A DNA stretch of 64,000 bases from Actinophytocola algeriensis. GTDB lineage: Bacteria > Actinomycetota > Actinomycetes > Mycobacteriales > Pseudonocardiaceae. Positions 13,936 through 32,262 of the stretch are shown one piece after another. A program made the position numbers and the translations under genes. The notes under the pieces were generated by a model. The model saw only the letters and a list, made by a program, of their open reading frames with translations, had not been told where the DNA came from and did not search any database. The number at the start of each line of letters is the position of its first letter. Position 1 is the stretch's first letter. The stretch spans positions 1 through 64,000 of the forward strand of contig NZ_JACHJQ010000010.1 of the NCBI RefSeq assembly GCF_014203735.1, read 5' to 3'.

Positions 13936-15249
13936 TCAGACGCGGCGGTGGGTGAAGCGCTGGTTGGGGTTGCCGCTGTAGGTGTACTGGGAGATGCGGG
14001 CGCCGTCGGCGGTCGAGTACTCCCAGACGTCCAGGGCCAGGCCGGTCGCCCGGTTGACGAGGCTGACCACGTCACCACCGTGGTCGACCACGCGCCAGTG
14101 CTGAACGGTGGCGCCGGTGTCGGCCTGTTGGACGATGTCCGCTCCGTTCGCGGTGCCCGTCGACTCGAGGAACAGGCCACTGTGCCGGGCCTTCACGCGG
14201 ACGTGGCCGTCGCCGGTGTCGACGAACTCGAACTGCTGGTTGGGGCCGCTGTTGGTGGTCCGCTGGACGAGCAGTGCGCCGGCGGTCGTGGAGGCCGCGT
14301 TGATCTCGGCGGCCTTGCCGCTGTGCTGAGCCACCAGGGTGTAGGGACCCGGGCCGCCGGGCGAGCTGCCCAGCTGGGCTTCCCACCTGGTGTTGGACCC
14401 GGCCGCGGCGGCCGGAAGGCGGTCCCGTGCCGCGGTGTCGCCGTACATGGTCCAGCGGGCCCACTCGACGACGGTGTTCGGGAAACGGTTGTCGCTCCAG
14501 AAGCTGGTGTGGCTGCCGCCGACGAAGGTGAGGAACGCCTTCGGCCAGGCCATCTCCGTGTACGCCTGCCGGGCCGAGGAGTACTGCGTGGTCGAGTCCC
14601 GGTCGCCGTGGACGAACAGGACCTTGGCGGAGACCGAGGCGGCGGGGTTGCCCATGTCCACACAGGACTGCGGGTTGGCGGAGACGATCCGGCTGTCGGG
14701 CCAGGACGTCAGCAGGCCGTGCGTGACCATGCCGCCCAGGGAATGGCCCGCGACGCCGACACCGACGCCGGTGTCGATGTGCCCGGCCAGCGGACCGCTC
14801 GCGTTGAGCGCGAGGGTGTTGGTGAGGATCTGCGAGACGTCCTTGGACGTGTTGCCGTTGTTGACATCGGTGAAGTTGTGGTTGAAGTGCGGGGCGGGGA
14901 CGATGAACCCCGCCGCGGCCAGGGCCCGGATGATGAACAGCGAGTTCTGCGGGCTGCTTCCGAAGCCGTGGGTGAAGTTGTGGACGGGGAAGACGCCGCC
15001 TGCGACCGGGGCGCTCGTCACCGGGTTGCCGCCGGGGGTGCCGGTGGCCGGGTAGTAGACGTAGGTGGTGCACGGGCGGTTGCCGCGGGTCCAGTCATAC
15101 CGGCGCACGCCGACCGCGAACGGCGTGGTCGGCGCCGTGTCCAGCGGTCCGACGGCGGCCGGCGCCGGTCCTGCGCCGAGCAGGGACAGGCCCACGCCCG
15201 CCGCTCCGGCCGCGCTCACACTGAGGAATGTCCGCCGTTGCATGGTCAT
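13936..15249 (-). CDS. Secreted alpha/beta hydrolase with C-terminal RICIN lectin domain
   Basis: A 437-residue protein with a Tat-type signal ([20 protein letters not shown]). Residues about 45-290 are an alpha/beta hydrolase of the PET-hydrolase/chlorophyllase-like type: oxyanion region NFTHGFGSS, nucleophile elbow GHSLGG (Ser170), acid in HGDRDSTT, and histidine in GGSHTSFW. Residues about 300-437 are a beta-trefoil RICIN domain with QxW-like repeats (FEFVDTGDGHVRVKARHSG, VQHWRVVDHGG, LDVWEYSTADGARISQY). It is probably an esterase that removes acyl groups from a plant polysaccharide. It is the last gene of the pectin-lyase operon, 33 bases after the GH53 gene, with AGGAG before ATG 15249. 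Confidence 0.8.
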   Translation of the reverse strand: MTMQRRTFLSVSAAGAAGVGLSLLGAGPAPAAVGPLDTAPTTPFAVGVRRYDWTRGNRPCTTYVYYPATGTPGGNPVTSAPVAGGVFPVHNFTHGFGSSPQNSLFIIRALAAAGFIVPAPHFNHNFTDVNNGNTSKDVSQILTNTLALNASGPLAGHIDTGVGVGVAGHSLGGMVTHGLLTSWPDSRIVSANPQSCVDMGNPAASVSAKVLFVHGDRDSTTQYSSARQAYTEMAWPKAFLTFVGGSHTSFWSDNRFPNTVVEWARWTMYGDTAARDRLPAAAAGSNTRWEAQLGSSPGGPGPYTLVAQHSGKAAEINAASTTAGALLVQRTTNSGPNQQFEFVDTGDGHVRVKARHSGLFLESTGTANGADIVQQADTGATVQHWRVVDHGGDVVSLVNRATGLALDVWEYSTADGARISQYTYSGNPNQRFTHRRV

Positions 15250-15282: not shown

Positions 15283-17184
15283 TCAGGGAACGACGTCGAT
15301 GACCGCCGTGACCGGTCCTCTGCCGGTCATGCCGGTCACTGTCACCACGCCCGGCTTGTCGGTCGCGCCAGGTGGCAACGGCTGCCAGCGGACGGGGACA
15401 CTGGTGATCCTGTTGGTGGCGGTGGTGAGCAGGTGGACGGAGGAGGGCAGCTTCGGGGCCGCGCCCACCGCGGTGGCGGTGTAGACGGTGTCCTGGAGGA
15501 TGTGCTTGGCGTGGCTGGCGTTGAAGACGTCGATGGATGCGTGCGGCTCCCACGTGTTCACCAGTCCGGGCACGGCACGGAACATCGGCTGCCAGCCGGC
15601 CGGCTCCCACACCAGCACAGCTGACGCTTGGTTGTTGACCACGTCGTTGGCGGCCTGGAACACCCGCTGAATGGCGTCCGCCTGCCCCTGAACCGTTCGC
15701 GGGAAGGGCGAGTTGGGCATCGGCGAGCCATCGCCGCCCGAGGCGGGGTAGGAGGTTTCGGCGATGTCGATCTCGTACTCGGGATAGTTGGTGGTGATGG
15801 TGTTCAGGTTGTGATCCAGTGCCTCGGGCGTACCGTGCCACTCCGGGTAGTACGAGATGGCCAGCACGTCAGGGTTCTGCCCCTTTGCCTTCACCCGGGT
15901 GAGAAACTGGTGCCAGAACTCCATGGTCGTGGCGAGCCGGTCCTTGTCGACGATCACGTGGATCTCGACCTTGGAGGTCGGTGACGCGTCGCGGACGGCC
16001 TTGATCCCGGCAGCGGCCAGGGTGGTGAACCGGTCCCACGACTTGTCGTAGAGCTGCTGTTCGGCCGGGTCGGTCGACCCCCAGTACCGCCACAGCAGGC
16101 CACCGCCGGGCTTCGACTGGTAGACCTCGGCCTGGTCGACGAAGTACGACGGATTCGTCGTGCCGATGAGGGCCGCCTCGCTGCCGTACAGGAAACCGTT
16201 GATGATCTCGTTGCCGACGGCCACCTTCTCCGGCGTGGTGCCCTGCCGGATCAACCGGTCCAGGTAGTCGGCGGTGTAGTCGTACACGGCCTTGGTCAGG
16301 TCCGCGAACTCCAGTTCGGCCCAGGCGCGTGGTTTCGGTTGCTTGCTCGGATCAGCCCACGAGTCCGCGTAGTGGAAGTCGATGCCCAGGCCCATCCCCC
16401 GCTGTTTGATCCACTGCGCGGAGGTCAGTGAGCGCTCCGGACCCTGGCGCGGTATCGGCGTCGGTTGACCGGTGCTCTCGTCACGCGGCTCGTTGAACAC
16501 CCGCAGCCGGGCGTACTCGATCCCACGATCCTTGGCCACGTCGAGCAGGTGTGGCCCGGCGCCCCGGTCCTCGGCCAGCGGGTGGACCCAGTACTGCTGG
16601 TCCTGGACATCGTCCACCCAGGACAGATCGGCGCCGAGGACGAGGTCGTCGCGGAGGTAGTTGAAGACCTGGAGTTCGCTGACACCAGCCCGGGCACTGC
16701 CCGGCACACCGGTGAACATCAGCCGGACGAAGCGCGTCCCCGGCCGCGTGAACAGGTGCACCTCCCCTCGCGACGCGGCTCGGTTGCGGGACCTGTCGGC
16801 GATGGTCGTCCACCGGCGACCGTCGGATGACGCCTCGACGACGTACCGGTAGGCCACGCCGCGGTCCGGGAACATCACCGTGACCTTGCCCAGGTTGTCG
16901 TAGGTGCCACCGAGGTCGACGGTGAGCCACTGCCGGGCGCCGGCACGATCGGGGTGCCAGGACGTCGCCGGGTCGCCGTCGATGGCGAGTCCGGCGCTCG
17001 ACGAGCTGCTGCCGGCCGTCGCCGAGGCCCAGTCCTTGGCGGCGATGTTGCTTTCGATCGGCTTGATGTCCGCGGTGCCGAAGATCGCACCGGCCGGCGC
17101 GGGCACGATGAGCAAGGTCGTGGACACCATGGCTGCCACCGTCGTCACGCCCGCGACGACGCGGGTCAGACGCTTGCCGCTCAT
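15283..17184 (-). CDS. GH53 arabinogalactan endo-beta-1,4-galactanase
   Basis: A 633-residue secreted enzyme. A signal peptide is followed by an F5/8-type C (CBM32-like) galactose-binding domain (about 35-185, SAGLAIDGDPATSWHP, WLTVDLGGTYDNLGKVTV), then a GH53 barrel (about 195-540) with ADLSWVDDVQDQ, YARLRVFNEPRDES, GLGIDFHYADSWADP, acid/base VAVGNEIINGF (Glu326) and nucleophile IDIAETSYPA (Glu476). A C-terminal Ig-like strand domain (about 550-633) ends the protein. GH53 enzymes cut the beta-1,4-galactan side chains of rhamnogalacturonan I outside the cell. GGGAGGAG precedes ATG 17184, which overlaps the stop of the upstream GH43 gene (ATGA). Confidence 0.9.
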   Translation of the reverse strand: MSGKRLTRVVAGVTTVAAMVSTTLLIVPAPAGAIFGTADIKPIESNIAAKDWASATAGSSSSSAGLAIDGDPATSWHPDRAGARQWLTVDLGGTYDNLGKVTVMFPDRGVAYRYVVEASSDGRRWTTIADRSRNRAASRGEVHLFTRPGTRFVRLMFTGVPGSARAGVSELQVFNYLRDDLVLGADLSWVDDVQDQQYWVHPLAEDRGAGPHLLDVAKDRGIEYARLRVFNEPRDESTGQPTPIPRQGPERSLTSAQWIKQRGMGLGIDFHYADSWADPSKQPKPRAWAELEFADLTKAVYDYTADYLDRLIRQGTTPEKVAVGNEIINGFLYGSEAALIGTTNPSYFVDQAEVYQSKPGGGLLWRYWGSTDPAEQQLYDKSWDRFTTLAAAGIKAVRDASPTSKVEIHVIVDKDRLATTMEFWHQFLTRVKAKGQNPDVLAISYYPEWHGTPEALDHNLNTITTNYPEYEIDIAETSYPASGGDGSPMPNSPFPRTVQGQADAIQRVFQAANDVVNNQASAVLVWEPAGWQPMFRAVPGLVNTWEPHASIDVFNASHAKHILQDTVYTATAVGAAPKLPSSVHLLTTATNRITSVPVRWQPLPPGATDKPGVVTVTGMTGRGPVTAVIDVVP

Positions 17185-19352
17185 GCGCTCCTCCCGGCGA
17201 TGTGGTCGAGGTAGTCGACGTTGGGCAGGCCGGCTGCCGTGGTCGGCTCCAACCGGATGGTGTTGCCGCCGGTGTTCAGCGGGACGGTCACGGTTTTGGT
17301 CGACCACGTGGTCCACGCACCGGTGGACTCGAACGACACCGTCGCTACCGTGGCCCCGTTGACGATCAGGTTCGCGGGCCGTGCGCTCGTGGTGCCGTTG
17401 GCGAACCGGACCCCCAGCGTCGCCGTGCCCGTTGCCGTCGGGGTGACGGTGAACTGGGCGTAGGCGCCCACGGCGTTGGTGCCGTTGCAGAACCCACTGC
17501 CGGAGAAACCGGCCTGGTTCGAGTCGATCGTGCCCTGGCACACCGCCGGCGCGGTCTCCGCCTCGTAACGCTCCCCCGCCGGCGGTTCGCCGCCGTCGGA
17601 GGTCTTGACGAGTGAGAGCTGGTCGACGACGACGCCGCCCGAACCCGACGCCCGCACGGCGACGGTGGCGGCCCCGCTGGGTAGCTCGATGCCGGTGAGC
17701 TCGCGCTTGGCCCAGCCACTCGACGACGGGATGCTGAGAGTGCGTTGGGTGCCGTTCGCGCCGGTGATCACGACCTGCCCGGCACTGCCCCGAGCATGCA
17801 GGGCCATGGTGTAGGTACCCGCGGGCACCGACGGGATCCGCTGCTCGACGCCGCCGCTGTTGCTCACCTGGAGGGCGAAGCGAGACCCGTTCACACCACC
17901 GTTGACGTTGGTCACCGAACCGCCGAGGTTCCGCCATCCCCGAACACTGGAGACGATGACGCGGTCGGCCTGGATGTCGGGGTTGAGGATGTAGTTGTTC
18001 GCAGGCCCGACGCGCCACTCACCGGTCGTGACGTTGAACTGCCACTGGCTCACCGAGTGGAACTGCGGCCGCGCGCCGGTCCTCGTGATCGGCACCCACT
18101 GGTTGTAGCCGATACCGTTCCAGGCGAAGTCGGCCCAGCGGTCGCCGGCGTAGATCACCGTGTTCTGCTTGGTGCCGTTGACCGTCACGAAGAACCCGGT
18201 CTGGGTCACGTGGCTGTAGTCCATCTCGGTACCGGGAAGGACGAACTCAGCCGAGTAGGAACCCTGGACATTGCCGCTGGTCGACTCGTTGACGTAGTTG
18301 ACCGAGGTGTTCCAGCCGTGCAGGTCCGACGCCGCGTGATAGTACTTGCCGTCGAGCTTGAACATGGCGTTGCCCTCGCGGCCGTCGCCGCGGCGGATCT
18401 CCACGCCTGGCTCGATCCGCAGCGAGTCGGACTCCCGGAACTTGGCCACGAAGCCGCGAGAACGTCCTTCGCGGTTGGAGAAGATCAGGTAGTCCTTGCC
18501 GTCGTCGGTGAAGACCGTCTGGTCCCCGGTGCCGGTCGTCGGCGAGTTGGTGATCTGGGTCTGGAAGTAGCCGTAGTCGAAGGTGTCGGTCGGCGAGTCG
18601 CCCTGCAGCAGCAGAACGCCGTGCCCGCCTCCTACATAGGCCTGCACCGCGAGCACGTACTTGCCGGTGTTCTCGTTGTACGAGACCCCAAGCCGCCCAA
18701 CCCAACCTGCCTGACCGAGGGTGGCGCCGTTCTGGATCACGGTCGACCGCGTCGCGACGCGGTTCTCGAACTTCCAGTTCACGAGGTCCTTGGACGAGTA
18801 CACGGGGATCGAGACGAAGGAGACCTGGTTGTCGTACTTCTGTGTCGGGTTGGCCCGATAGCTCTCGGCGCCGACGTAGTGCACGCCGTACCAGTAGTAC
18901 GTGTCGCCGAACTTGAAGACCCCGCCGCCCTGCGAATAGATGGGGTTGCCGCTGGTGTCGTTCCAGAAGGTGTTGTTCGTGATGGTCTGGAACGTGCCCT
19001 CGTCAGCGGCCTCCAGCTCGGCGGCGGCGGTCATCAGCACCGTCTTCGCCGCGGCGACCTGCGACGTGGTGGCCGACGTGTCATCGGCGACACCGGCCGC
19101 GGTGGTCAACGCCTTGGCAAATGGTCTCCAGGAGTCAGCCGTGTACTTCGCCGGATGACGGGTCTGGTAGTCGGACACCAGGAACCCGAGGCCGCGATCG
19201 ACCACCGGTTCAGCTGCGGCCCCCTGGTCTCGGAGCTGCGTCGGCTCCGCCGCGGTGGTACTCGCCGAGAGCGGGACCGCCAACGCCACGGACAACACCG
19301 CGGCGGCGGCCAACGTCCAGTACTTCGAAGCGACACGCGATGTTCGCCTCAT
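17181..19352 (-). CDS. GH43 exo-beta-1,3-galactanase-like enzyme with CBM35
   Basis: A 723-residue secreted protein. After a Sec signal comes a helical FIVAR-like spacer (about 45-120), then a GH43 five-bladed propeller (about 125-430) that begins NPIYSQGGGVFKFGDTYYWY and contains VSIPVYSSKDLVNWKFENR, FTDDGKDYLIFSNREGRSRG and REGNAMFKLDGKYYHAASD. This resembles GH43 subfamily 24, exo-beta-1,3-galactanases that act on arabinogalactan cores. A beta-sandwich (about 450-575) and a CBM35 (about 590-720, YEAETAPAVCQGTIDSNQ) follow. The N-terminal Glu region of the propeller is degenerate, as in that subfamily. GGAAGG precedes ATG 19352; the PL9 stop lies 4 bases upstream. Confidence 0.82.
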   Translation of the reverse strand: MRRTSRVASKYWTLAAAAVLSVALAVPLSASTTAAEPTQLRDQGAAAEPVVDRGLGFLVSDYQTRHPAKYTADSWRPFAKALTTAAGVADDTSATTSQVAAAKTVLMTAAAELEAADEGTFQTITNNTFWNDTSGNPIYSQGGGVFKFGDTYYWYGVHYVGAESYRANPTQKYDNQVSFVSIPVYSSKDLVNWKFENRVATRSTVIQNGATLGQAGWVGRLGVSYNENTGKYVLAVQAYVGGGHGVLLLQGDSPTDTFDYGYFQTQITNSPTTGTGDQTVFTDDGKDYLIFSNREGRSRGFVAKFRESDSLRIEPGVEIRRGDGREGNAMFKLDGKYYHAASDLHGWNTSVNYVNESTSGNVQGSYSAEFVLPGTEMDYSHVTQTGFFVTVNGTKQNTVIYAGDRWADFAWNGIGYNQWVPITRTGARPQFHSVSQWQFNVTTGEWRVGPANNYILNPDIQADRVIVSSVRGWRNLGGSVTNVNGGVNGSRFALQVSNSGGVEQRIPSVPAGTYTMALHARGSAGQVVITGANGTQRTLSIPSSSGWAKRELTGIELPSGAATVAVRASGSGGVVVDQLSLVKTSDGGEPPAGERYEAETAPAVCQGTIDSNQAGFSGSGFCNGTNAVGAYAQFTVTPTATGTATLGVRFANGTTSARPANLIVNGATVATVSFESTGAWTTWSTKTVTVPLNTGGNTIRLEPTTAAGLPNVDYLDHIAGRSA

Positions 19353-19356
19353 GATG

Positions 19357-20703
19357 TCACCTTCCATCGTTCTCGAAGGCACCGAGATCCGGCGCACTCC
19401 CGCTGAAGGGCAGTCCCACACCGGTGCCCCTGTCGATCAGGGCACTGTTCGCCGCGAGACGGAGATGGGGCAGCACGGGCAGGCTCCCGTCGGTCTGACG
19501 GGGCGCGTCCCAACCGGACGTCGACACACTCTGGAACTGGGCGTCCGACAGGGGGACGCCGAGGTTCCAGGAGTTGTACGCGGCGTTCGTGCCGGACAGG
19601 TACGACGTCGGCGTTCCGGTGTAGGCGAGGTTGTTGCGCAGGTTGCCCCGGCCCACGGCGGCGCCACTCGAGTCGACGCCCCGCATGTTGAAGTTGGGGT
19701 GGTTTCCGTAGCCGGTGTTGTTGAAGAAGTCATTGGCCACCGGGTGGTGGTTGGCGTAGAAGCCGGCCGCCTTGTTGAGGAACGCCACCGAGAAGCGGAC
19801 GGTGTGCTTCACCGCGCCCGCGTCGTAGTCGCCGCCGTAGCCGCCCGCCTTGAAGCCTGCTCCGTTGCCCGACGGCGTCGTCGTCCCCGGCACGTACCCG
19901 TTGCGCCAGGCCCACGAGTGCTCGATGGTCACGGGCGAATAGGTGGAGATGAGGTCGAACCCGTCATCGGCGTTCCACCACGCGCGGCAACCCCGGAACA
20001 CGTTCGCCGCGCGGCCTGCTGGTGTGTAGTGCGATCCGAACCCGTCGGCGTTCTCGCCGGGTCCGTCACTGCTGCGCAGGTCGTAGTTGTCATGCGAGTC
20101 CGAGTTGAGGACGAGGTTGCCGCTCCCGCCGTTGATGAACAGGCCGGTTCCCATGTGGTGGTGGGTGTTGATCTGCTCGAAAATGTTGTTGCTGCCGGAG
20201 ACCCAGATTCCCCAGGACTCGGCGTTCAGGTTGTTGTTCTGTGGTACGCCGGTGACGTCCAGTCCTTTGAGGTGGATCCAGCTGCCCGTGACGTTGAAGC
20301 CCTTGATACGGCAGTTGTCCGTCATTCGCGAGAAGTCGAAGACCGGCTTATCGCCCGGATGGGCCCAGTACCGGATCGGGTTGCCTGAGCTGCCGCTCTT
20401 GTTCAGGGTGATCGCGTCGACTCTGGCGGTCCGGCTGGCGCAGGCGCTGTTCGCGCGGGTGTAGGCGTACGTGCCGCCCCGGAAATACACGGTGTCACCC
20501 GCCGTGGCGGCGGCTTGCGCGCGGGCGATCGACGCCCACGGAGCGGCCTGCGTACCCGCCGCGCCGTCATTCCCGTTCGGGGCGACGTAATAGACGTTAC
20601 CGGCCGCGGCGCTCGCGGATGCCGGACTGCCGACCATCGCGATGGTGCACGCCGTGACCACCGAGAGCAGGAGAGCACGGGGGACGAACTTCGCGGTTCT
20701 CAC
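19357..20703 (-). CDS. PL9 family pectate lyase
   Basis: A 448-residue secreted right-handed parallel beta-helix protein. After the signal peptide it begins GNVYYVAPNGNDGAAGTQAA and APWASIARAQAAATAGDTVY, the standard PL9 entry, then GNPIRYWAHPGDKPVFDFS, GFNVTGSWIHLKGLDVTGV, NDGFDLISTYSPVTIEHSW-type rungs, and DYDAGAVKHTVRFSVAFLNK, which covers the region of the catalytic lysine and calcium acids. PL9 enzymes cleave polygalacturonate or the galacturonate-rhamnose backbone by beta-elimination. The start is GTG 20703 (MRTAKFVPRALLLSV), with GGGAGATG upstream. It is the second gene of the lyase operon. Confidence 0.85.
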   Translation of the reverse strand: MRTAKFVPRALLLSVVTACTIAMVGSPASASAAAGNVYYVAPNGNDGAAGTQAAPWASIARAQAAATAGDTVYFRGGTYAYTRANSACASRTARVDAITLNKSGSSGNPIRYWAHPGDKPVFDFSRMTDNCRIKGFNVTGSWIHLKGLDVTGVPQNNNLNAESWGIWVSGSNNIFEQINTHHHMGTGLFINGGSGNLVLNSDSHDNYDLRSSDGPGENADGFGSHYTPAGRAANVFRGCRAWWNADDGFDLISTYSPVTIEHSWAWRNGYVPGTTTPSGNGAGFKAGGYGGDYDAGAVKHTVRFSVAFLNKAAGFYANHHPVANDFFNNTGYGNHPNFNMRGVDSSGAAVGRGNLRNNLAYTGTPTSYLSGTNAAYNSWNLGVPLSDAQFQSVSTSGWDAPRQTDGSLPVLPHLRLAANSALIDRGTGVGLPFSGSAPDLGAFENDGR

Positions 20704-20720
20704 AGCGTCATCTCCCGATG

Positions 20721-22595
20721 TCAGGGGTTGAGGAAGCTCGCGTGCGGTGGCTGGTTGTAGGCGGTGTTCTGCCAGGCCACGGCCACCCGGTACTGCCGGT
20801 CCTGCATCAGCGACGGACGGCTGATGCCGGTCGAGTCGGTGGTGGAGTAGATCCGCAGCGCCCGGTTGTCGGTGGTGCGCCAGATGACTTCCTCGCGCCA
20901 GTCGCCGAGGATGTCGGCCTGCAGCGCCGGGGTGGACTTGGTGCCGTTGTTGGACACCACGCCGGAGCCGGTGAGCAGGCGGGTGTCGCCGCCGGTGCCG
21001 TACTTGGAGATCTGGGTGCCGTCGAGCAGTTCGCGCTGGGCGTCGCCGTCCCACCAGATCACGAAGTTCGTCGAGCCCGGCTTGCGGCTGGCCACCTGGT
21101 TTCCGTTGGTGCCGCTGCGCAGCCCGCCGACGCACGACGACCAGGCCTCCGCACCCGCGCTGCCGGACCAGATGTCCGCGGCGACAGCGCGGCCGTTGTC
21201 GTCGCCGCAGGACGGTGCGCTCCAGAGGATCTGCCCGGTACGCGCGTCACCCATCCAGTGCGCCGGCTCGTTGGTCCACTCCGACGGTTTGAACACCTCG
21301 AGGCCGGGGCGGGACGGGATGAAGTCGCTGACGTGGTAGGCGTCGCCGTGGTGGGTGTTGTTCTGCCACAGCCCGTTGCCGTTGTCGTCGATGGCCATCG
21401 AGCCGTACATGATCTCGTCGCGGCCGTCCCCGTCCACATCCGCCACCGACAGCTGGTGGTTGCCTTTGCCCGTCCACTGGCTGCCCGCGTTGTTCGAGTC
21501 GAACGTCCAGCGGCGGGTCAGCTGCCCGTCGCGGAAGTCCCACGCGGAGACCACCGAGCGCGTGTAGTAGCCGCGGGCCATGATGATGCTCGGCCGTGAG
21601 CCGTCCACATAGGCCGTTCCGGCGAGGAAGCGGTCCACCCGGTTGCCGTAGTTGTCGCCCCAGCTCGCGACGTTGCCGCGTGGCGGGACGTAGCTCTCGG
21701 TGTCCAGGACCGCGCCGTCGGTGCCGCGGAACACCGACAGGAACTCCGGTCCGGCCAGGATGTAGCCAGAGGAGTTGCGGTGGTCGGCGCTCGCGCTGCC
21801 GATCATCTGACCGGTGCCGGAGCGGGTGCCGTCGGCGGTCTTCACCGCGACCTCGGCGCGGCCGTCGCCGTCGTAGTCGAACACCTGGAACTGCGTGTAG
21901 TGCGCGCCTGCCCGGATGTTGCGGCCGAGGTCGACCCGCCACAGCCGGGTGCCGTCCAGACGGTACGCGTCGAGGTAGACGTTGCCGGTGTAGCCGGACT
22001 GCGCGTTGTCCTTGGCGTTGGTCGGGTCCCACTTCAGCACGACCTCGTACTGGCCGTCACCATCCAGGTCGCCCACACTCGCGTCGTTCGCGACGTAGGT
22101 GTAGTTCTCCCCGGACGGAGTGGTGCCGCCGGGCGGGATCTGGATCGGCACGTCCCGGGTGCTGGCCGTGATGCCGACGTCACCGGGAACGCCGTCCAGC
22201 GTCAGTGAGTCCCCGGCGGCGAACGTCGACGGCTGCTCGACCCCGTCGACCACGGCTCGCACGGTGTACTTGGCATTCGCGGGAGCACCGAGGTCCACAT
22301 AGGAGGTCGGGCCACCGACCGGCGTCCGCGTCGCCCTGGTGCCGTCGCGGTACACGTTGAACGTGACACCGGCCGGGTCGCCGGCCAGCAGCCGCCAGCT
22401 GACCCGATTGCCGTTCGCGGTGTGCACGCTGATCACGCCGCGGTTCAGGTTGTCGGTCTGCGGCTGGATCGCCTGCGGCACAGTGCCCGCGGTCGCGGAT
22501 TCCGCCGCGCCGACCGCCATGCCCGGCGTCAACCCGACCGCCACGACGCCCGCCGCGGCAACGGCCAGCCGTCGGCTGATGGCGAACGAACGCAT
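20721..22595 (-). CDS. PL11 rhamnogalacturonan lyase
   Basis: A 624-residue secreted lyase, first gene of the operon. After the signal come an Ig-like N-terminal domain (about 40-140, RGVISVHTANGNRVSWRLL) and an eight-bladed propeller with calcium-binding DxDGDG loops (VGDLDGDGQYEVVLKWDPT, VFDYDGDGRAEVAVKTADG, VADVDGDGRDEIMYGSMAI), HHGDAYHVSDFIPSRPGLEV and LGDWREEVIWRTTD near the end. These are the marks of PL11 (YesW/YesX). It cuts the alternating rhamnose-galacturonate backbone of rhamnogalacturonan I. AGGAG precedes ATG 22595. Two CTGTG palindromes and a CebR-like box lie 220-390 bases upstream. Confidence 0.92.
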   Translation of the reverse strand: MRSFAISRRLAVAAAGVVAVGLTPGMAVGAAESATAGTVPQAIQPQTDNLNRGVISVHTANGNRVSWRLLAGDPAGVTFNVYRDGTRATRTPVGGPTSYVDLGAPANAKYTVRAVVDGVEQPSTFAAGDSLTLDGVPGDVGITASTRDVPIQIPPGGTTPSGENYTYVANDASVGDLDGDGQYEVVLKWDPTNAKDNAQSGYTGNVYLDAYRLDGTRLWRVDLGRNIRAGAHYTQFQVFDYDGDGRAEVAVKTADGTRSGTGQMIGSASADHRNSSGYILAGPEFLSVFRGTDGAVLDTESYVPPRGNVASWGDNYGNRVDRFLAGTAYVDGSRPSIIMARGYYTRSVVSAWDFRDGQLTRRWTFDSNNAGSQWTGKGNHQLSVADVDGDGRDEIMYGSMAIDDNGNGLWQNNTHHGDAYHVSDFIPSRPGLEVFKPSEWTNEPAHWMGDARTGQILWSAPSCGDDNGRAVAADIWSGSAGAEAWSSCVGGLRSGTNGNQVASRKPGSTNFVIWWDGDAQRELLDGTQISKYGTGGDTRLLTGSGVVSNNGTKSTPALQADILGDWREEVIWRTTDNRALRIYSTTDSTGISRPSLMQDRQYRVAVAWQNTAYNQPPHASFLNP

Positions 22596-22816
22596 GGGAG
22601 TACTCCTATCTGCAGGGGTTTTCGTCACTTCTGTCCAGAAGGGACGGTTCGGCGCGGGTAGCCGACGAGTGACGGGTACAGCCGGGGGAGGCGGTGGGCC
22701 GGGTGATTCAACCCAGTGCTGTGCTTTGGCGGCCAGCGCGATCAGCGCGGGCAGGTTCGTACGCGGTCATTCGATCTCCCTTGATCGACTGAGCAGGGCA
22801 TGTGCGGTGATGGATG

Positions 22817-22832
22817 CTGTGAACGTGCACAG
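22817..22832. promoter_or_regulatory. Operator A1 (CTGTGAACGTGCACAG)
   Basis: A 16-base near-palindrome with the central CG typical of LacI-family operators. It is identical to the site at 22904 and to the reverse complement of the site at 24126. Confidence 0.75.
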
Positions 22833-22903
22833 CCACAACGCACGATCCATTCTTGATGGAACCGCATGTCTTTGATCGTTTCAAGAGGGCGCGGCAATGA
22901 AAC

Positions 22904-22919
22904 CTGTGAACGTGCACAG
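22904..22919. promoter_or_regulatory. Operator A2 (CTGTGAACGTGCACAG)
   Basis: Second identical copy, 87 bases from A1 (about eight helical turns). The spacing suits cooperative or looped binding by the adjacent LacI-type repressor. Confidence 0.75.
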
Positions 22920-22970
22920 AAACTTTCGGGACTTGACCACCCTGCTCCGAGCTGCCATAGTCAATCGAGC

Positions 22971-22984
22971 TGGGAGCGCTCCCA
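22971..22984. promoter_or_regulatory. CebR-type operator (TGGGAGCGCTCCCA)
   Basis: A perfect 14-base palindrome identical to the known operator of CebR, the cello-oligosaccharide-sensing LacI-family repressor of streptomycetes. No cebR gene lies in the window, so the regulator would act from elsewhere in the genome. Confidence 0.65.
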
Positions 22985-23050
22985 ATAGCGCACTCGCTCT
23001 CTGGGTCGTGGGCACGGATCCCCACGGAGTGGCTTCCGGTTCCCGCGTGG

Positions 23051-24097
23051 TCAGGCCGACTCGCGCACGACGAGCTTGGTCGGCAGGATCACCGTGGCGG
23101 GCCCTTCGCCGTTGATCTGGGCCAGCAGTTGGCGCACCATCATTTTGCTGATGCGGTCCCATGGTTGCTGGATCGTGGTCAGCGGGGGACGCGTCGACGG
23201 CGCGACCGGTGAGTCGTCGAAACCGCCGACGGCGATGTCCTCAGGGACGCGCAGGCCCGCCCGCTGGATCGCCGTCAGGGCGCCGTCGGCCATGAGGTCC
23301 GACGCGACGAAGACCGCGTCGAGGTCCGGGGCACGGGCGAGCAGGTGGTACATGCATGACTCGCCGCTCGCCCTGCTGTAGTCGCCTGTCGCCACGAGTC
23401 GCTTGTCGTGGGCGATGCCGTGCTCGGCGAGCGTCTCGCGGTAGCCGGCCAGCCGCTCCAGGCCACCGGGGGTGTCCTGGGGGCCTGCGATGGTCGCGAT
23501 ACGCGTGCGACCGGACTCGAGGAGGTGGCGCACCATGTTCTTGGCACCCTCCCGGTCGTCGGCCGCCACGTAGGACAACGCACCGCGCTGGCCGAGCGGC
23601 TTGCCGCAGCACACGAACGGCAGATCGGCCGCCAGGAAGTGGTCGATCATCGGGTTGCCGCGGTGCGAGGAGAACAGCAGCACGCCGTCGACGTGGTGCG
23701 CCGAGAGGTAGGGGGTGATGCGCCGGCGTTCGGCCTCGGAGCCCGCGGTGACCAGGATGAGCGGGATGTCCAGCTCGGCCAGGGCCGCGGTGCAGCCGCG
23801 TAGCAGAGTGGTGAAGTTGGGGTCGGAGAAGAACCGGTCCTGCGTTTCCGAGAGCAGGAACGCCACCGAGCCCGCTCGCTGGGTCACCAGGCTGCGCGCA
23901 GCCCGGTTCACCACGTAGCCCAGCTTGCGGATCGCGGCGTTGACCGCCTCCCGGGCGGCCGGGCTGACGTTGTCCCCGCCCTGCAGGACGCGTGAGACGG
24001 TGCCACGGGAGACCCCCGCGTGCGCGGCGACGTCGTGGATGGTCGGCGGGCGCTTGCTCCGTGCTCGCGCACGCCGCTGTGGCGCGGTGTCCGTCAT
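23051..24097 (-). CDS. LacI-family repressor 1 (galactan/pectin control)
   Basis: A 348-residue LacI/GalR regulator. The HTH is TIHDVAAHAGVSRGTVSRVL (about 19-38) with the hinge helix NRAARSLVTQRAGSVAFLL. The periplasmic-binding-like sensor domain (about 75-345) includes HHVDGVLLFSSHRGNPMIDH and DAVFVASDLMADGALTAI, and ends VILPTKLVVRESA. It lies between the pectin-lyase operon and the GH42 gene. A CTGTGCACGTTCACAG site lies 29 bases before its own start, which implies autorepression. The likely inducer is a galacto- or galacturono-oligosaccharide, inferred from neighbours only. Confidence 0.9.
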   Translation of the reverse strand: MTDTAPQRRARARSKRPPTIHDVAAHAGVSRGTVSRVLQGGDNVSPAAREAVNAAIRKLGYVVNRAARSLVTQRAGSVAFLLSETQDRFFSDPNFTTLLRGCTAALAELDIPLILVTAGSEAERRRITPYLSAHHVDGVLLFSSHRGNPMIDHFLAADLPFVCCGKPLGQRGALSYVAADDREGAKNMVRHLLESGRTRIATIAGPQDTPGGLERLAGYRETLAEHGIAHDKRLVATGDYSRASGESCMYHLLARAPDLDAVFVASDLMADGALTAIQRAGLRVPEDIAVGGFDDSPVAPSTRPPLTTIQQPWDRISKMMVRQLLAQINGEGPATVILPTKLVVRESA

Positions 24098-24125
24098 CGG
24101 TCCTCATCTACTGCGACTGCCCGGG

Positions 24126-24141
24126 CTGTGCACGTTCACAG
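24126..24141. promoter_or_regulatory. Operator A3 (CTGTGCACGTTCACAG)
   Basis: Exact reverse complement of operators A1 and A2. It lies between the divergent lacI-type gene and the GH42 gene. Confidence 0.75.
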
Positions 24142-24211
24142 TAGATACGCACGGTCGACGCTTCAACAGCCGCTATGTACGGTGATTCAGGGGCTACTGG
24201 CGGATGTTCGT

Positions 24212-24227
24212 CTGTGCACGGTCACAG
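24212..24227. promoter_or_regulatory. Operator A4 (CTGTGCACGGTCACAG)
   Basis: One base differs from A3. It ends 16 bases before the GH42 start codon, where bound repressor would block expression. It is 86 bases from A3, almost the same spacing as A1-A2. Confidence 0.7.
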
Positions 24228-24243: not shown

Positions 24244-26253
24244 ATGGAGCGGCACTGGCCGGTCGGGTTGGACGCCCTGGCCTATGGCGGTGACTACACC
24301 CCCGAGCAGTGGCCGAAACCGGTGTGGCAGGAGGACGTGCGCCTCATGCGCGAGGCCGGGGTGACGATGGTCAGCGTCGGGATCTTCACCTGGGCACTGC
24401 TGGAGCCCGAGCCAGGCCAGTACGACTTCGGCTGGCTGGACCAACTGCTGGACCTGCTGCACGACAACGGGATCCGCGTCGACCTCGGCACCCCGACGGT
24501 CGTGCCACCCGCGTGGTTCTACGAACGGCACCCCGAGGCGTTACCGGTGACCCGCGAGGGCATGCGCCATGCATTCGGTGGCCGGGGTGCCATCTGCCAC
24601 AGCTCCCCCGCCTACCAGCGCGCGGCCGTGTCGATCATCGAGCAGCTGGCCCGCCGCTACGGCAGGCATCCCGCCGTGGCGCTGTGGCACGTCCACAACG
24701 AGTACGGCGCGCCGGTGAGCGCGTGTTACTGCGAGACCTCCGCCGTCGCGTTCCGCGGCTGGCTGGCCGGCCGCTACACGACGGTCAAGGAGCTCAACGA
24801 GGCGTGGGGCACCACGTTCTGGGGCCAGACCTACAACTCCTGGGAGCAGGTGCATCCCCCGCGTCTCGTCCCCCCGGTGGGCAATCCGACCCAGCAGCTG
24901 GACTGGGCCCGGTTCACCAGCGACGAACTGCTGGAGAACTTCAAGCGGGAACGGGACGTGCTGCATGCCCACTCCCCCGGCATCCCGGTGACCACGAACT
25001 TCCACGCCGCGCTGTCCCAGTGCGAGTCGCTGGACTACTGGGCCTGGGCACGGGAGGTCGACCTCGTCACCAACGACCACTACCTGGTCGCCGAAGCCGA
25101 CCGCAACCATGTCAACCTCGCGATGGCCGCCGACATCACCCGCTCGCTGGCAGGTGGGCGGCCATGGCTGCTGCTGGAACACTCCACCAGCGCGGTGAAC
25201 TGGCAGCCCCGCAACATCGCCAAGCGGCCTGGGGAGATGGCCCGCAACAGCCTGGCGCACGTGGCACGCGGTTCGGACGGCGCCATGTTCTTCCAGTGGC
25301 GCGCGTCCCGCTTCGGTGCCGAGAAGTTCCACTCGGCGATGCTCCCGCACGCCGGCGCGGAGAGCCGGATCTGGCGGGAGGTCGTGCGGCTCGGTCAGGA
25401 TCTCGGCGCGCTCGCGCCGATCCGCGGCAGCCGTGTGGTAGCGGACGTCGCGATGCTGTGGGACTGGCAGTCCTGGTGGGCGCAGCGGCTGGAGTGGCGG
25501 CCGAGTGCCGATCTCGACGCCCGCGAACGAGCCGACACGTGGTACGCCGCCGCGTACGACCGGCACCTCACGGTCGACTTCGCCCACCCGGAGGCCGACC
25601 TGTGCGACTACCCGCTGGTCGTCGTCCCGGCCCTGTACGCGATGACGGACGTCGCCGGGGCCAACCTCCGCCGCTACGTCGAGGACGGTGGCGTTCTGGT
25701 CGTGTCGTGTTTCTCCGGCATCGTCGACGAGCGCGACGTCATCCATCCGGGCGCCCACCCCGGCGCGCTGCGCGACGTGCTGGGCCTGACGGTGGAGGAG
25801 TTCACCCCACTGCGCGCAGGCGAGCGGGTCCGGCTGGACAACGAGATGACCGGCGACGTGTGGTCCGAGGTCGTCACACTCGGCGGCGCCGAACCGGTTT
25901 GGTCCTATCTGGACGGTCCGGCTGCCGGACTGCCCGCGGTCACCCGCCATGTGGAAGGGCGTGGCACTGCCTGGTACGTCTCCACCCGCCTGGCGGCGGA
26001 CGGCCTCGACGCCGTGCTGCACGCTGCGAGCGCGGACGCCTCGCTCGCACCGCGCGACCTGCCCCGTGACGTCGAGGTGGTCGAACGCACCGGCTCGGAG
26101 GGGCGATACCTGTTCGCCATCAACCACACCGGTGAGGAGGTCACGATCCCCGTCGCCGAGCCGGGTGCGGAACTCGTGACCGGAGCCGACGTCACCGGCC
26201 ATCTCCATGTGCCCGCCGGCGAAGTCCGTGTCGTCGTCACACCGACGCGGTGA
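24244..26253 (+). CDS. GH42 beta-galactosidase
   Basis: A 669-residue GH42 enzyme without a signal peptide, so probably cytoplasmic. The barrel begins LAYGGDYTPEQWPKPVWQED; acid/base Glu153 lies in WHVHNEYGAPVSACYCE and nucleophile Glu312 in LLEHSTSAVNWQ. The cysteines in ACYCE fit the metal cluster seen in some GH42 proteins. The trimerisation domain (about 400-600) and small C-terminal beta domain follow. It would hydrolyse galacto-oligosaccharides imported after extracellular galactanase action. GAGGGAG precedes ATG 24244. Control by repressor 1 is indicated by operators A3 and A4. Confidence 0.92.
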   Translation: MERHWPVGLDALAYGGDYTPEQWPKPVWQEDVRLMREAGVTMVSVGIFTWALLEPEPGQYDFGWLDQLLDLLHDNGIRVDLGTPTVVPPAWFYERHPEALPVTREGMRHAFGGRGAICHSSPAYQRAAVSIIEQLARRYGRHPAVALWHVHNEYGAPVSACYCETSAVAFRGWLAGRYTTVKELNEAWGTTFWGQTYNSWEQVHPPRLVPPVGNPTQQLDWARFTSDELLENFKRERDVLHAHSPGIPVTTNFHAALSQCESLDYWAWAREVDLVTNDHYLVAEADRNHVNLAMAADITRSLAGGRPWLLLEHSTSAVNWQPRNIAKRPGEMARNSLAHVARGSDGAMFFQWRASRFGAEKFHSAMLPHAGAESRIWREVVRLGQDLGALAPIRGSRVVADVAMLWDWQSWWAQRLEWRPSADLDARERADTWYAAAYDRHLTVDFAHPEADLCDYPLVVVPALYAMTDVAGANLRRYVEDGGVLVVSCFSGIVDERDVIHPGAHPGALRDVLGLTVEEFTPLRAGERVRLDNEMTGDVWSEVVTLGGAEPVWSYLDGPAAGLPAVTRHVEGRGTAWYVSTRLAADGLDAVLHAASADASLAPRDLPRDVEVVERTGSEGRYLFAINHTGEEVTIPVAEPGAELVTGADVTGHLHVPAGEVRVVVTPTR

Positions 26254-26277: not shown

Positions 26278-27621
26278 TCAACCCTGGTTCACGGAGAAGC
26301 CCTGCTGGTTTCCGTATTCCACGAGGGTGTCCTGCCAGGCGCGGAGTCCGGCGTCGAGGTCGGTGTTGTTCACGTACGCCTGGCCCGCGGTGTCGTAGAA
26401 GATGGTTTCGGCGTAGAGCTGGTAGGGCAGGTACTCCCAGCCGCTCGACACCTGGGTCGCGGCGGTGGTCAGCACCTCGTTGATCTTCTGCCCGCCGAAG
26501 TACGGCGAGGAGAAGTCCCGGAACTCGCTCGACTCGAGGTCCGCCGTGGTGGCCGGGAAGCCGCCGCTCTCCAGGAAGACGTCGAGACTGGCCTGGTCGT
26601 TGTTGAGCCAGCGGACGAACGCCGCCGCCAGGTCCGGGTTGTCGCTCTGCTTGAGCACGGACTGGGTGCTGCCACCGTGCTCGGCGGTGACCGGCTCGCC
26701 GCCGTCGTAGGTCGGGAGTGGGGCCACGGCCCACTTGCCGGAGGCGGCCTGTACCGACTCCATCAGGATGCCCGGCATCCACGCGCCTGCCGTCACGGTG
26801 GCGATGGTCCCGTCACCGAGCGCCCGGTACCACTCGTCGGTCCACCCGGTGATGTTGGTGACCAGCTTGCCCTCGACGAGCTTGTTCCAGACCGCGGTCC
26901 ACTTCTTCGTGCCCTCGTCCTGCAGGTTGACGGTGACGTCGCGGTCGCCCTCCGTCTTGAACGGGCGGCCGCCTGCCTGCCAGATCAGGCTGGTGGTGAA
27001 ACCGGGGTCCCCGGCGTCGGAGGCGATGTACTTCGTCGGGTCGGCGGCATGCAGCTTCTGCGCCGCGGCCACGTAGTCGTCCCAGGTCTTCGGCACCGCG
27101 ATGCCGTACTGGGTGAAGACCTCCTTGTTGTAGAACAGCGCCATGGGACCGGAGTCCTGGGGCAGGCCGTAGATGCCGTCGCCGACGTGCACCGACTCCC
27201 ACGTGGACGCGGTGTAGTCGTCCTCGAGGTTCTCGAAACCGTAGCCGGTCAGATCGACCAGCGACTCCTGCAGCGCGAACTGGGGCAGCGCCCGGTACTC
27301 GATCTGCGTCACGTCCGGGCCGCCACGTCCGGCCTTGATCGCGTTCTGCAGCGCCGTGTAGTGGTCCTCGCCGGTCCCGACGTTCACGAACTCGACGTTG
27401 ACGTTCGGGTACTCCTTCTCGAACGCGGCCGACTGTTCCTTGCCGGAGGGCGTCCAGCTCCAGTAGGTGATCGTGCCGCCCTTGTCCAGTGCCGCGTCCA
27501 GCGCCTCGGGGGACGCGTTGCCGCCGGAGGAGGAGTCGTCACCGGACGAACATCCGGCGAGCAGTACGGCGAGCGAGGTCGCCAGCGCCCAGATCACCTT
27601 GCGACGTGGGGTTCGGGTCAT
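26278..27621 (-). CDS. ABC transporter sugar-binding lipoprotein
   Basis: A 447-residue family 1 extracellular solute-binding protein. The lipobox is LLAGC (Cys24). It starts GGTITYWSWTPSGKEQSAAF and has PDVTQIEYRALPQFALQ, YGLPQDSGPMALFYNKEVFT and WEYLPYQLYAETIFYDTAGQ, typical of CUT1 oligosaccharide-binding proteins. Third gene of the transporter operon, 26 bases after the second permease, with GAAGGGA before ATG 27621. No ATPase is encoded here; such operons usually borrow a shared MsiK-type ATPase. The substrate is inferred to be arabino- or galacto-oligosaccharides. Confidence 0.9.
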   Translation of the reverse strand: MTRTPRRKVIWALATSLAVLLAGCSSGDDSSSGGNASPEALDAALDKGGTITYWSWTPSGKEQSAAFEKEYPNVNVEFVNVGTGEDHYTALQNAIKAGRGGPDVTQIEYRALPQFALQESLVDLTGYGFENLEDDYTASTWESVHVGDGIYGLPQDSGPMALFYNKEVFTQYGIAVPKTWDDYVAAAQKLHAADPTKYIASDAGDPGFTTSLIWQAGGRPFKTEGDRDVTVNLQDEGTKKWTAVWNKLVEGKLVTNITGWTDEWYRALGDGTIATVTAGAWMPGILMESVQAASGKWAVAPLPTYDGGEPVTAEHGGSTQSVLKQSDNPDLAAAFVRWLNNDQASLDVFLESGGFPATTADLESSEFRDFSSPYFGGQKINEVLTTAATQVSSGWEYLPYQLYAETIFYDTAGQAYVNNTDLDAGLRAWQDTLVEYGNQQGFSVNQG

Positions 27622-27647
27622 GAGATGTCCCTTCGGTGGGCGGGTAC

Positions 27648-28520
27648 CTACTGCTTGACGCTGCCCGCGCTCAGGCCGGACTGCCAGAACCGTTGCAGGA
27701 GCAGGAAGGCGGCCACGAGCGGGATGATCGTGAGCAGTGATCCGGTGATCACGAGGTGGTAGATCGGCTCCGCGCCGGCGCCCCGGCCCTGGCCACTCCA
27801 CTGGTTCAGCCCCACGGTCAGCGGATACCAGCGCGGCTCGTTGATCATGATCAACGGCAGGAAGTAGTTGTTCCAGGTGGACACCACGGCGAACAACGCG
27901 ACGGTCACGATGCCGGGCACGAGAAGACGCAGCGCCACGGAGAAGAAGATCCGGATCTCGCCGGCGCCGTCGATCCGCGCCGACTCGATCAGCTCGTCGG
28001 GTACCGCGTCCGCCGCATAGACCCAGATCAGGTAGAGGCCGAACGGGCTCACCAGCGACGGGGTGATCACCGCCCACGGGGTGTTGGTCAGGCCCATCGC
28101 GCTGAACATCAGGAACGTCGGCACGGCGAGCGCGGTGCCGGGAATCGCGATCGCGCCGAGGATGACCGCGAACACCGCACGCCGCCCCGCGAACCGGTAC
28201 TTGGCGAGCCCGTAGCCCGCCGCGGTGGCCAGCAGAGTCGCCCCGCCGGCGCCGGCCACCACGTACAGCAGCGTGTTGCCCAGCCACCGCAGGAAGATGC
28301 CGTCGTCGTAGGTGAACGTCTCGGCGATGTTGGCGAACAGCGCGAACGACCCGCCGAACCACAGGCCAGGCGAGTCGAACAGGGCCGCCTGGGACTTGGT
28401 CGCGTTGATCACCAGCCAGACCAGCGGCACCAACGTGTAGACGAGGTACAGGGAGGCGACGGCGGTCAGCACCTTCGACTTGCCCGCCATCAGGCCCCCG
28501 TGCGCGGCTTTCCGTGCCAT
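27648..28520 (-). CDS. ABC sugar transporter permease (MalG-like)
   Basis: A 290-residue inner-membrane permease with six predicted helices and the EAA loop ELIESARIDGAGEIRIFFSV (about 180-200) that docks the ATPase. N-terminal LVPLVWLVINATKSQ and the short C terminus are typical of MalG-like CUT1 permeases. The ATG at 28520 shares one base with the stop of the upstream permease (TGATG), giving tight translational coupling. Confidence 0.9.
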   Translation of the reverse strand: MARKAAHGGLMAGKSKVLTAVASLYLVYTLVPLVWLVINATKSQAALFDSPGLWFGGSFALFANIAETFTYDDGIFLRWLGNTLLYVVAGAGGATLLATAAGYGLAKYRFAGRRAVFAVILGAIAIPGTALAVPTFLMFSAMGLTNTPWAVITPSLVSPFGLYLIWVYAADAVPDELIESARIDGAGEIRIFFSVALRLLVPGIVTVALFAVVSTWNNYFLPLIMINEPRWYPLTVGLNQWSGQGRGAGAEPIYHLVITGSLLTIIPLVAAFLLLQRFWQSGLSAGSVKQ

Positions 28521-29419
28521 CACGTGCCCTTCCGCGCGCCGCGCAGCTGCACCACGTAGGCGATGACCGCGGTGATCACACCCATCACGATCGCGACGGT
28601 GGCCGCGTAGTTGTACTGCTGACCGCCGAAGGACAGGTAGAAGGCGTACATGTTCGGCGTGTAGTCGGTCGTGAGCACGTTGGGTATCAGTCCGCGCAGG
28701 ATGTTCGGCTCGTTGAACAGCTGGAAGCTGCCGATGATCGAGAAGATGGTCGCGATCACGATGGCGCCGCGCAGGGCGGGCAGCTTGATGCTGAAGATCG
28801 TCCGGAACGGTCCGGCGCCGTCGAGGGCGGCGGCCTCGTACAGCTCACCGGAGATGACCCGCAGCCCCGAGTAGAAAATGATCATGTTGTAGCCGACGAA
28901 CTCCCAGGTGACGATGTTGCCGATCGAGGCGAGCGCCCAGTCCAGCGACAGGGGCCGGATCTCGGAGCCGAACAGGTCGTTGAGGTCGGCGGCGAGACCG
29001 AAGTTGGTGCCGTACATGTAGCCCCACATGAGGGTGGCGACCACCGCGGGCACCGCGTACGGCAGGAAGATCACGATCCGGAAGAAGCCCGCCGCGTGCA
29101 GCCGGGCGCTGTCGATGGCCAACGCCGCGACCAACGCGAGCACCAGCATGATCGGCACCTGGACCGCGAGGAAGATCATCACTCGCAGGAAACCGCTCCA
29201 GAACCGGGTGTCGGAGAAGAGCAGCACGTAGTTGTCGAGCCCGACGAAGGCCGTGCCGCCGAAGAAAGCCTGATCCTGGAACAGGCTCAGCTGGACGGCG
29301 TAACCGATGGGCGCGAGGAACGTCAACGCGAACACGATCGCGAAGGGCGCGACGAAGATCCAGCCACGCTGGTCGAGTCGCCGCCGCGAATCGCGTGGGC
29401 GGCCGGTCGTCGACGCCAT
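28520..29419 (-). CDS. ABC sugar transporter permease (MalF-like)
   Basis: A 299-residue permease with six predicted helices. It shows LDQRGWIFVAPFAIVFALTF at the N terminus, FVGLDNYVLLFSDTRFW and an EAA loop ELYEAAALDGAGPFRTIFSI (about 195-215). First gene of the transporter operon. ATG 29419 has GGGGA upstream, and two TGTTnACG palindromes lie 21-66 bases before it, shared with the divergent repressor gene. Confidence 0.9.
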   Translation of the reverse strand: MASTTGRPRDSRRRLDQRGWIFVAPFAIVFALTFLAPIGYAVQLSLFQDQAFFGGTAFVGLDNYVLLFSDTRFWSGFLRVMIFLAVQVPIMLVLALVAALAIDSARLHAAGFFRIVIFLPYAVPAVVATLMWGYMYGTNFGLAADLNDLFGSEIRPLSLDWALASIGNIVTWEFVGYNMIIFYSGLRVISGELYEAAALDGAGPFRTIFSIKLPALRGAIVIATIFSIIGSFQLFNEPNILRGLIPNVLTTDYTPNMYAFYLSFGGQQYNYAATVAIVMGVITAVIAYVVQLRGARKGT

Positions 29420-29439
29420 CGTCGTTCCCCGCAGGTCAA

Positions 29440-29453
29440 TGTTTACGCTAACA
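29440..29453. promoter_or_regulatory. Operator B1 (TGTTTACGCTAACA)
   Basis: A 14-base imperfect palindrome (reverse complement TGTTAGCGTAAACA) with the central CG of LacI-type operators, 21 bases before the transporter start codon. Confidence 0.7.
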
Positions 29454-29471
29454 TTTCGCCGGAAGGTACCG

Positions 29472-32115: not shown

Positions 32116-32128
32116 GTCCCGAGTGTTA

Positions 32129-32142
32129 TGTGAGCGATAACA
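32129..32142. promoter_or_regulatory. Operator B3 (TGTGAGCGATAACA)
   Basis: One base differs from B4. The wider context TGTTATGTGAGCGATAACA extends the dyad. Confidence 0.6.
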
Positions 32143-32248
32143 TCTTCGTACATTGTATATCGTTCCACCTTTTGCCGGCAGCACGCATTTTGCCTGCTAG
32201 TCCCCATAAACTAGCGTGACGATGAGGATGTGGACAATGTCCAAAGCC

Positions 32249-32262
32249 TGTTAGCGATAACA
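32249..32262. promoter_or_regulatory. Operator B4 (TGTTAGCGATAACA)
   Basis: A near-perfect palindrome with central CG. It matches the reverse complement of B1 (TGTTAGCGTAAACA) at 13 of 14 positions, so the same repressor probably binds both. Confidence 0.7.

Follow-up and report, generated by a model that had tools for sequence, protein, structure and literature searches.

Genes and palindromes of the R1 locus

The window, by which we mean the whole stretch of 64,000 nucleotides that was analysed, comes from a soil actinomycete and contains a gene for a LacI-family repressor (R1) and, on the opposite strand, a GH42 β-galactosidase gene. Beyond R1, the minus strand carries a PL11 rhamnogalacturonan lyase gene, after which Pel9A-like, GH43, GH53 and ricin-lectin genes follow in this order (Table 1). 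Pfam agrees with the names LacI, GH42 and PL11 that the original prediction had given to the three central genes. Judged by their family functions, the enzymes of the locus together should be able to attack rhamnogalacturonan I and its galactan/arabinan side chains.

Table 1. Features of the R1 locus, with positions counted from the first letter of the window.
Feature	Position	Strand	Basis or remark
Ricin-lectin protein, weak Chlorophyllase/esterase match	13936..15249	-	Pfam
GH53 endo-galactanase frame	15286..17067 (start not fixed)	-	Pfam
GH43 with CBM, frame	17181..19421 (start not fixed)	-	Pfam
Pel9A-like pectate lyase frame	19357..20817 (start not fixed)	-	Pfam
PL11 rhamnogalacturonan lyase frame	20721..22628 (likely start 22595)	-	Pfam
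Leader ORF of 20 codons with strong Shine-Dalgarno site	22708..22770	-	Probable scar of lost GH53 gene
Operator O-down of PL11 operon	22817..22832	-	Putative centre ~+26; site match, comparison across loci
Putative PL11-operon promoter, TTGAAA-N17-TTCCAT	22856..22884	-	Between the two operators; boxes conserved in type-B loci
Operator O-up of PL11 operon	22904..22919	-	Putative centre ~-62; site match, comparison across loci
Exact CebR consensus box TGGGAGCGCTCCCA	22971..22984		Pattern match; consensus as given in PMC5332605
R1, LacI-family repressor, 348 aa	23051..24097	-	Pfam; best PDB relative 5ysz
Operator before R1	24126..24141		Overlaps putative -10 of R1 promoter
Putative R1 promoter, TTGAAG-N17-TACTGT	24138..24166	-	Boxes at constant place across loci
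Operator before GH42	24212..24227		Site match
GH42 β-galactosidase	24244..26253 (likely start)	+	Pfam

R1 has the domains of the LacI family, namely PF00356 (LacI HTH, 5.6e-16) and PF13377 (periplasmic-binding-like, 2.4e-36), and a CG-centred palindrome that is conserved among orthologs lies near its own gene. Its nearest solved structure is 5ysz (E 2.8e-91, 309 bits), which is labelled as a LacI-family regulator in the database and which we take to be the CelR-cellobiose structure. Two paralogs encoded in the same genome, C2:526224 and C4:814075, match 5ysz at 327 and 274 bits. When R1 was aligned to LacI, its residue 346 of 348 fell on residue 327 of 360, and some 33 further LacI residues were unmatched. 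R1 thus stops at the end of the LacI core, indicating that it lacks the C-terminal tetramerisation helix. A comparison of recognition helices revealed no clear code, as the helix is nearly constant while the operators differ.

Four palindromes had been predicted around R1, and a pattern match returned them with the same coordinates and identities. Read on the plus strand of the 64-kb window, CTGTGnACGnnCACAG is exact at all four sites. The two sites on the PL11 side have identical letters, the site before R1 is their exact reverse complement, and the site before GH42 (CTGTGCACGGTCACAG) is one base off from the one before R1. The spacings, claimed to be nearly equal, were measured as 87 on the PL11 side and 86 on the R1/GH42 side. 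Between the palindrome and the gene lie 28 bases up to the R1 start codon and 16 bases up to the likely GH42 start. The best match to the palindrome in the rest of the window has two mismatches. Scanning the window with a PWM gave scores of at least 10 at these four sites only, and column-shuffled PWMs gave a mean of 0.06 hits of score at least 13 (50 shuffles).

Scatter of the 16-mer over the genome had been named as one of the observations that would speak against a regulon. Instead, CTGTGnnCGnnCACAG has five exact copies in its own 9.73-Mb genome, of which four are those in the window. The fifth, C4:310961, was rejected as a regulon member because it sits in the coding frame of galT (a gene named from its translation). 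With up to one mismatch, CTGTGnnCGnnCACAG occurs at 43 places (the five exact ones included) versus 30 for the reversed pattern, and the tighter 14-mer TGTGMACGTKCACA with up to two mismatches at 113 versus 50 for the control. The one-mismatch count is close to that of its control; as the 14-mer count exceeds that of the control, weaker sites elsewhere in the genome are possible. Chance does not account for the cluster of palindromes, and it is at this locus that the genome has its strong sites.

Among the matches listed, four other places lie within one mismatch of the 14-mer. C4:643478, C10:292770 and C11:2659 are inside long reading frames and were discarded as sites. C2:1073877 (G000; L080 1377), an R1-like site located 6 bases 5' of a mechanically called ORF for a secreted ricin-lectin protein, is a weak candidate site. 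A further exact TGTGnACGTnCACA at C4:846500 was dropped, as its PWM score is below 9.

Outside the R1 locus, three observations were made in the window. ABC transporter genes occupy positions 26278-29419 between GH42 and a second LacI gene (R2), and their upstream region has an R2-type palindrome and no R1 site. Palindromes resembling CTGTTAGCGATAACAG are found at 29439-29454, 32128-32143 and 32248-32263, beside R2 and before a GH43 gene; four matches (three places) with up to three mismatches compare with 0.32 expected, and these palindromes likely belong to a second LacI regulon. Finally, positions 61690-61758 (plus strand) match the Rfam ASpks antisense RNA (60.1 bits) and face a minus-strand reading frame of great length, presumably a modular polyketide synthase.

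R1 orthologs and their operator pairs

Of 390 searched genomes from the family, 31, the own genome among them, have an R1 match with an E-value no higher than 1e-110. Orthologs occur in two Lentzea species and in 'Nocardia' sp. NRRL S-836 (L016-L018); the family of Lentzea is Pseudonocardiaceae. We read the loci with surroundings of up to 19.5 kb and grouped them by R1 identity: 17 at ~81% or more (81% group, window included), 14 at 62-65%, and two at 58-59%. In L123 the R1 gene is divided between two frames, in L124 it is truncated where the contig stops, and the label BNR8691 in the locus annotation stands for GH53.

GH42 and the R1 unit are arranged divergently in 8/17 loci of the 81% group and in 14/14 of the 62-65% group, 22/31 in total. 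In 6/17 and 14/14 loci, respectively (20/31), genes for a solute-binding protein and a pair of permeases lie ahead of R1. This R1-linked transporter is absent from the window's genome, where its nearest homologs are 36% and 31% identical. Its presence in just six of the 17 close loci would fit repeated loss as well as repeated gain. A second unit after R1, equipped with its own operator pair, is found in the 81% group only, and begins with PL11, GH53 or an esterase-lectin gene. Altogether, the genes that follow operator pairs are GH42, transporter-R1 operons, GH53, PL11, GH43 and esterase-lectins; by predicted function, this set is a galactan/rhamnogalacturonan regulon.

The leader ORF before PL11 shares its Shine-Dalgarno site, start and first codons with the GH53 gene of L113 (Pfam). 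The same start region is common to GH53 look-alikes in L119, L124 and L160 and to a GH53 fragment in L116, and short remnants like the leader ORF exist in several other loci. Because its start region is shared with GH53 genes, the leader ORF is probably the remnant of a lost first gene, GH53. We rejected a regulatory peptide, since the peptide is conserved over the first codons only and the same start codon opens GH53 elsewhere.

Pairs that lie in the divergent region or precede R1 were named type A, those that precede the second unit type B. The 22 type-A pairs are spaced by 86-88 bp and the 16 type-B pairs by 86-90 bp. The PWM detected a pair at 86-90 bp in 16/17 loci of the 81% group, 14/14 of the 62-65% group and 0/2 at 58-59%, that is, in 30/31 loci at ~62% identity or more. 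As the PWM had been trained on 27 pairs from R1 loci that were later counted with it, these numbers are circular for those loci; an untrained pattern found pairs in 16/17 and 13/14 loci (29/31). The second R1 copy of G276 (L121, 81% group) has no site, L125 (G409) has one strong site only by the untrained pattern, and the distant orthologs L139 and L140 (58-59%) each carry just a single site of the variant form C[TC]GTGAGCGCTCACAG.

For counts free of this circularity, exact patterns were searched in 18 of the 31 R1 genomes (own included) and in 18 hand-picked genomes without R1, whose best match is weaker than E 1e-110 and several of which have paralogs at E 1e-71 to 1e-88. GTGnACGTnCAC occurs twice with centres 82-92 bp apart in 17/18 R1 genomes, G409 being the exception, and in 0/18 genomes without R1. 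The reversed pattern gave pairs in 0/36 genomes. Fisher's test yields p 4e-9 for the co-occurrence if the genomes are independent, which they are not. The gap range was set after the spacing had been seen, and flanking ranges were scanned too: no exact pair with centres 52-82 or 92-122 bp apart was found in the 18 R1 genomes. The 28 exact pairs have spacings of 86 (5), 87 (6), 88 (9), 89 (4) and 90 bp (4). Single exact 14-mers are present in all 18 R1 genomes (1-12 each) and also in 10/18 genomes without R1 (1-4 each), indicating that single sites are unspecific and pairs specific.

Pairs are not confined to the R1 locus. Of 20 stretches around exact 14-mers outside it, 11 hold 12 pairs at 86-89 bp, and these adjoin or precede GH53 (4), esterase-lectin (4), PL11 (2) and GH43 genes (1) or a mixed cluster (1), as identified by tblastn. 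The others comprise one pair at 66 bp, three at 156 bp and five stretches with single sites only, the latter not beside galactan/pectin-type genes as far as seen; seven further single-site stretches were scanned and hold no pair. The distal spacing values leave out the pairs at 66 and 156 bp, the values of 225 and 314 given by a third weak site in L165, and the L119 pair at 18181 (86 bp), which was aligned and is also left out of the type-B statistics (16 loci). In L169 (3604/3760), L172 (3723/3879) and L175 (3848/4004), R1-like sites at a distance of 156 bp lie 5' of a different LacI-type gene (30% identity to R1).

Taken together, the window, genome, shuffled-PWM, control-locus and co-occurrence counts rule out a chance origin of the four sites. 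The absence of paired sites from all 18 sampled genomes without R1 supports the predicted regulon, and the claim that the repressor controls both units as well as itself gains comparative support, as paired sites accompany R1 orthologs before the same gene classes.

It could be argued that another LacI paralog, R2 or a CebR-type protein, binds these sites in place of R1. Members of the LacI family bind similar CG-centred palindromes, and five more R1-like matches in the genome reach E 1e-60 or better. However, the sites accompany R1: in the loci of 24 other LacI paralogs (96 kb) there are zero sites of score at least 14.5 and one of at least 12. In addition, C4:814075 and C2:526224 have CebR boxes upstream, and R2 adjoins a different palindrome. 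We consider binding by a paralog very improbable. Since 5ysz is nearest to R1, yet CebR boxes lie beside the paralogs, R1 appears to be a CebR/CelR relative with a different operator and different targets.

Putative promoters within the pairs and the CebR box

All 16 type-B loci contain TTGAAA-like and TTCTAT-like boxes 23 bases apart (TTGAAA-N17-TTCTAT; TTCCAT in the window), and the first base of the box lies 33-36 bases from the O-up start in each of them. If the usual -35 numbering holds, the type-B operators are centred near -62 and +26. The type-A box that points to R1 or to the transporter (TTGAA, TTGAC or TTGCC) starts 61-63 bases from the O-up start in 22/22 cases, which would centre the downstream operator near -2, over the -10 (TACTGTG). 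In the 62-65% group, 13/13 pairs have another TTGAC box that is directed toward GH42 and keeps a constant offset. No TTGAC box toward GH42 was found at the corresponding place in the 81% group, window included, and the window's GH42 promoter was therefore not identified.

Relative to the operator pair, the promoter is shifted by ~27 bp between types A and B, and the pair distance is kept. A constant distance combined with a moving promoter suggests a constraint on the pair itself, for example cooperation or a short loop. The spacing could, on the other hand, be inherited promoter geometry, with each operator blocking its own start site and R1 dimers not interacting. We regard this as a real possibility, at somewhat less than even odds. 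The back-to-back TTGAC boxes between the operators, which keep constant offsets in 13/13 type-A pairs of the 62-65% group, are consistent with it, as is an R1 without tetramerisation tail. Moreover, a type-B-like promoter cassette is common to most distal pairs, and shared descent of such a cassette could keep the distance. Homology between type-A and type-B inter-operator sequences was considered and set aside: z was 3.0 (reverse complement 4.2) in the 81% group and -3.3 in the 62-65% group versus shuffles, values that stem from related sequences and are not decisive, so that a weak A-to-B similarity may exist. Against inherited geometry stand the single recognised promoter of type B, which is shifted at the same spacing, the lack of exact pairs in both flanking distance ranges, and the location of the type-B O-up upstream of -35, a position from which O-up alone would not be expected to block.

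The CebR box of the window, located 51 bases from the upstream PL11 operator, is identical to the CebR consensus published in PMC5332605. L110, a locus from genome G187 of another genus, has a CebR box at the corresponding position, 64-65 bp when measured from start to start. Exact boxes are thus present in 2/16 type-B intervals; the other 14 intervals are just 17-57 bases long and have no box. Among the remaining scanned loci, an exact box occurs in L116 only, further downstream. The exact CebR 14-mer has 15 copies in the window's own genome. C4:814075 has an exact TGGGAGCGCTCCCA 99 bp upstream, and C2:526224 has a box with one mismatch ~120 bp upstream in addition to three exact copies located within 8 kb. 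The secreted proteins around C2:526224 are, going by the ORF list, presumably cellulases and an AA10-type protein.

Before the CebR box, the plus strand carries a promoter-like TTGACC-N17-CATAGT at 22933-22961 (one found versus 0.1 expected in a 1.7-kb stretch), and a similar element can be read by eye in L110. This element would be antisense to R1 and point into it. The box suggests combined sensing of cellulose and pectin, with a CebR-type repressor probably adding a second, cellulose-linked control on the PL11 side in the window's genome. One may go further and propose that a dimeric, tail-less R1 works only as a fixed-distance pair (86-90 bp, ~8 turns) in a small DNA loop, inside which the promoter can take different positions, and that the CebR-controlled antisense element (own genome and one other genus) lets cellulose breakdown products tune R1. 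We give this combined scheme little chance; if true, a CebR-tuned R1 would link cellulose and pectin use.

Proposed regulation and comparison with known systems

The full best explanation, to which we assign a probability of roughly 0.88, is that R1 is a dedicated LacI-family repressor of galactan/rhamnogalacturonan-I use. We read it as an autoregulated, GanR-like galactan repressor. Without inducer, R1 dimers would occupy both palindromes at every target. The operator over the -10 of the R1 promoter would act by occlusion. The GH42 operator would act from immediately in front of the gene, overlying the second back-to-back promoter in the more remote relatives, and two operators would flank the one promoter of the PL11 operon at ~-62 and +26. 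Paired dimers may cooperate across the fixed 86-90 bp, possibly via a short loop; the fixed spacing favours looping, and the missing tetramerisation tail argues against the classical LacI route. An imported β-galacto-oligosaccharide, probably galactobiose made by GH53, would release R1, and GH42 would then cleave this inducing sugar.

Galacto-oligosaccharides as inducer fit the gene content, namely GH53 galactanase, ABC transporter and GH42. It seems rather unlikely that fragments of rhamnogalacturonan or arabinan are the effector and define the role of R1 instead. PL11, Pel9A-like and GH43 genes share one unit in the window, as would be expected for such fragments, but several type-B units begin with GH53, and the wide linkage of R1 to GH42 (22/31) and to the transporter (20/31) also points to galacto-oligosaccharides.

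By comparative standards, the regulon predicted for R1 is real and of a known kind. The original prediction was correct in its essentials; the CebR box, the promoter positions, the missing transporter and the leader scar are additions to it. As a switch, it is ordinary and well supported; its spacing is unusually strict. An open-access full-text literature search yielded no paper that we recognised as describing this regulon, and the open-access papers containing the letters of the 12-mer were, judged by title, on unrelated subjects. Our analysis provides a testable galactan/RG-I regulon for Pseudonocardiaceae, and the 28 exact operator pairs in 17 genomes, strictly spaced but with a movable promoter, are natural material for finding out if DNA looping by dimeric repressors of the LacI family takes place in actinomycetes. 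Testing would be most worthwhile for the strict spacing and the CebR box.

A precedent for looping by dimers is E. coli GalR, a repressor without tetramer tail that loops DNA together with HU, and whose two operators flank the gal promoter at ~-60 and +54. The R1 pairs differ in their spacing of 86-90 bp, from which any R1 loop is deduced.

In its role, R1 appears comparable to Bacillus GanR; in sequence, it is nearest to the CebR/CelR branch. GanR of Bacillus subtilis is likewise a LacI-family repressor beside ABC transporter, galactanase and β-galactosidase genes, has paired inverted repeats of the promoter region as its sites of action, is relieved by β-1,4-galactobiose and, according to a section heading of the same paper, represses ganR too (PMC5472308). 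The R1 regulon has the same galactanase, transporter and β-galactosidase genes, with the R1-linked transporter missing in the window itself. Unlike those of GanR, the R1 sites are separated by 86-90 bp and are found in front of PL11 and GH43 genes as well, and the nearest solved relative of R1 belongs to the CebR/CelR branch (GanR itself was not in the alignment). With CebR/CelR of actinomycetes, R1 shares the nearest structure, the domain order and a CG-centred palindrome. In contrast to the CebR box TGGGAGCGCTCCCA (PMC5332605), however, R1 loci carry pairs of TGTGnACGTnCACA, and the predicted targets of R1 are pectin genes rather than cellulases.
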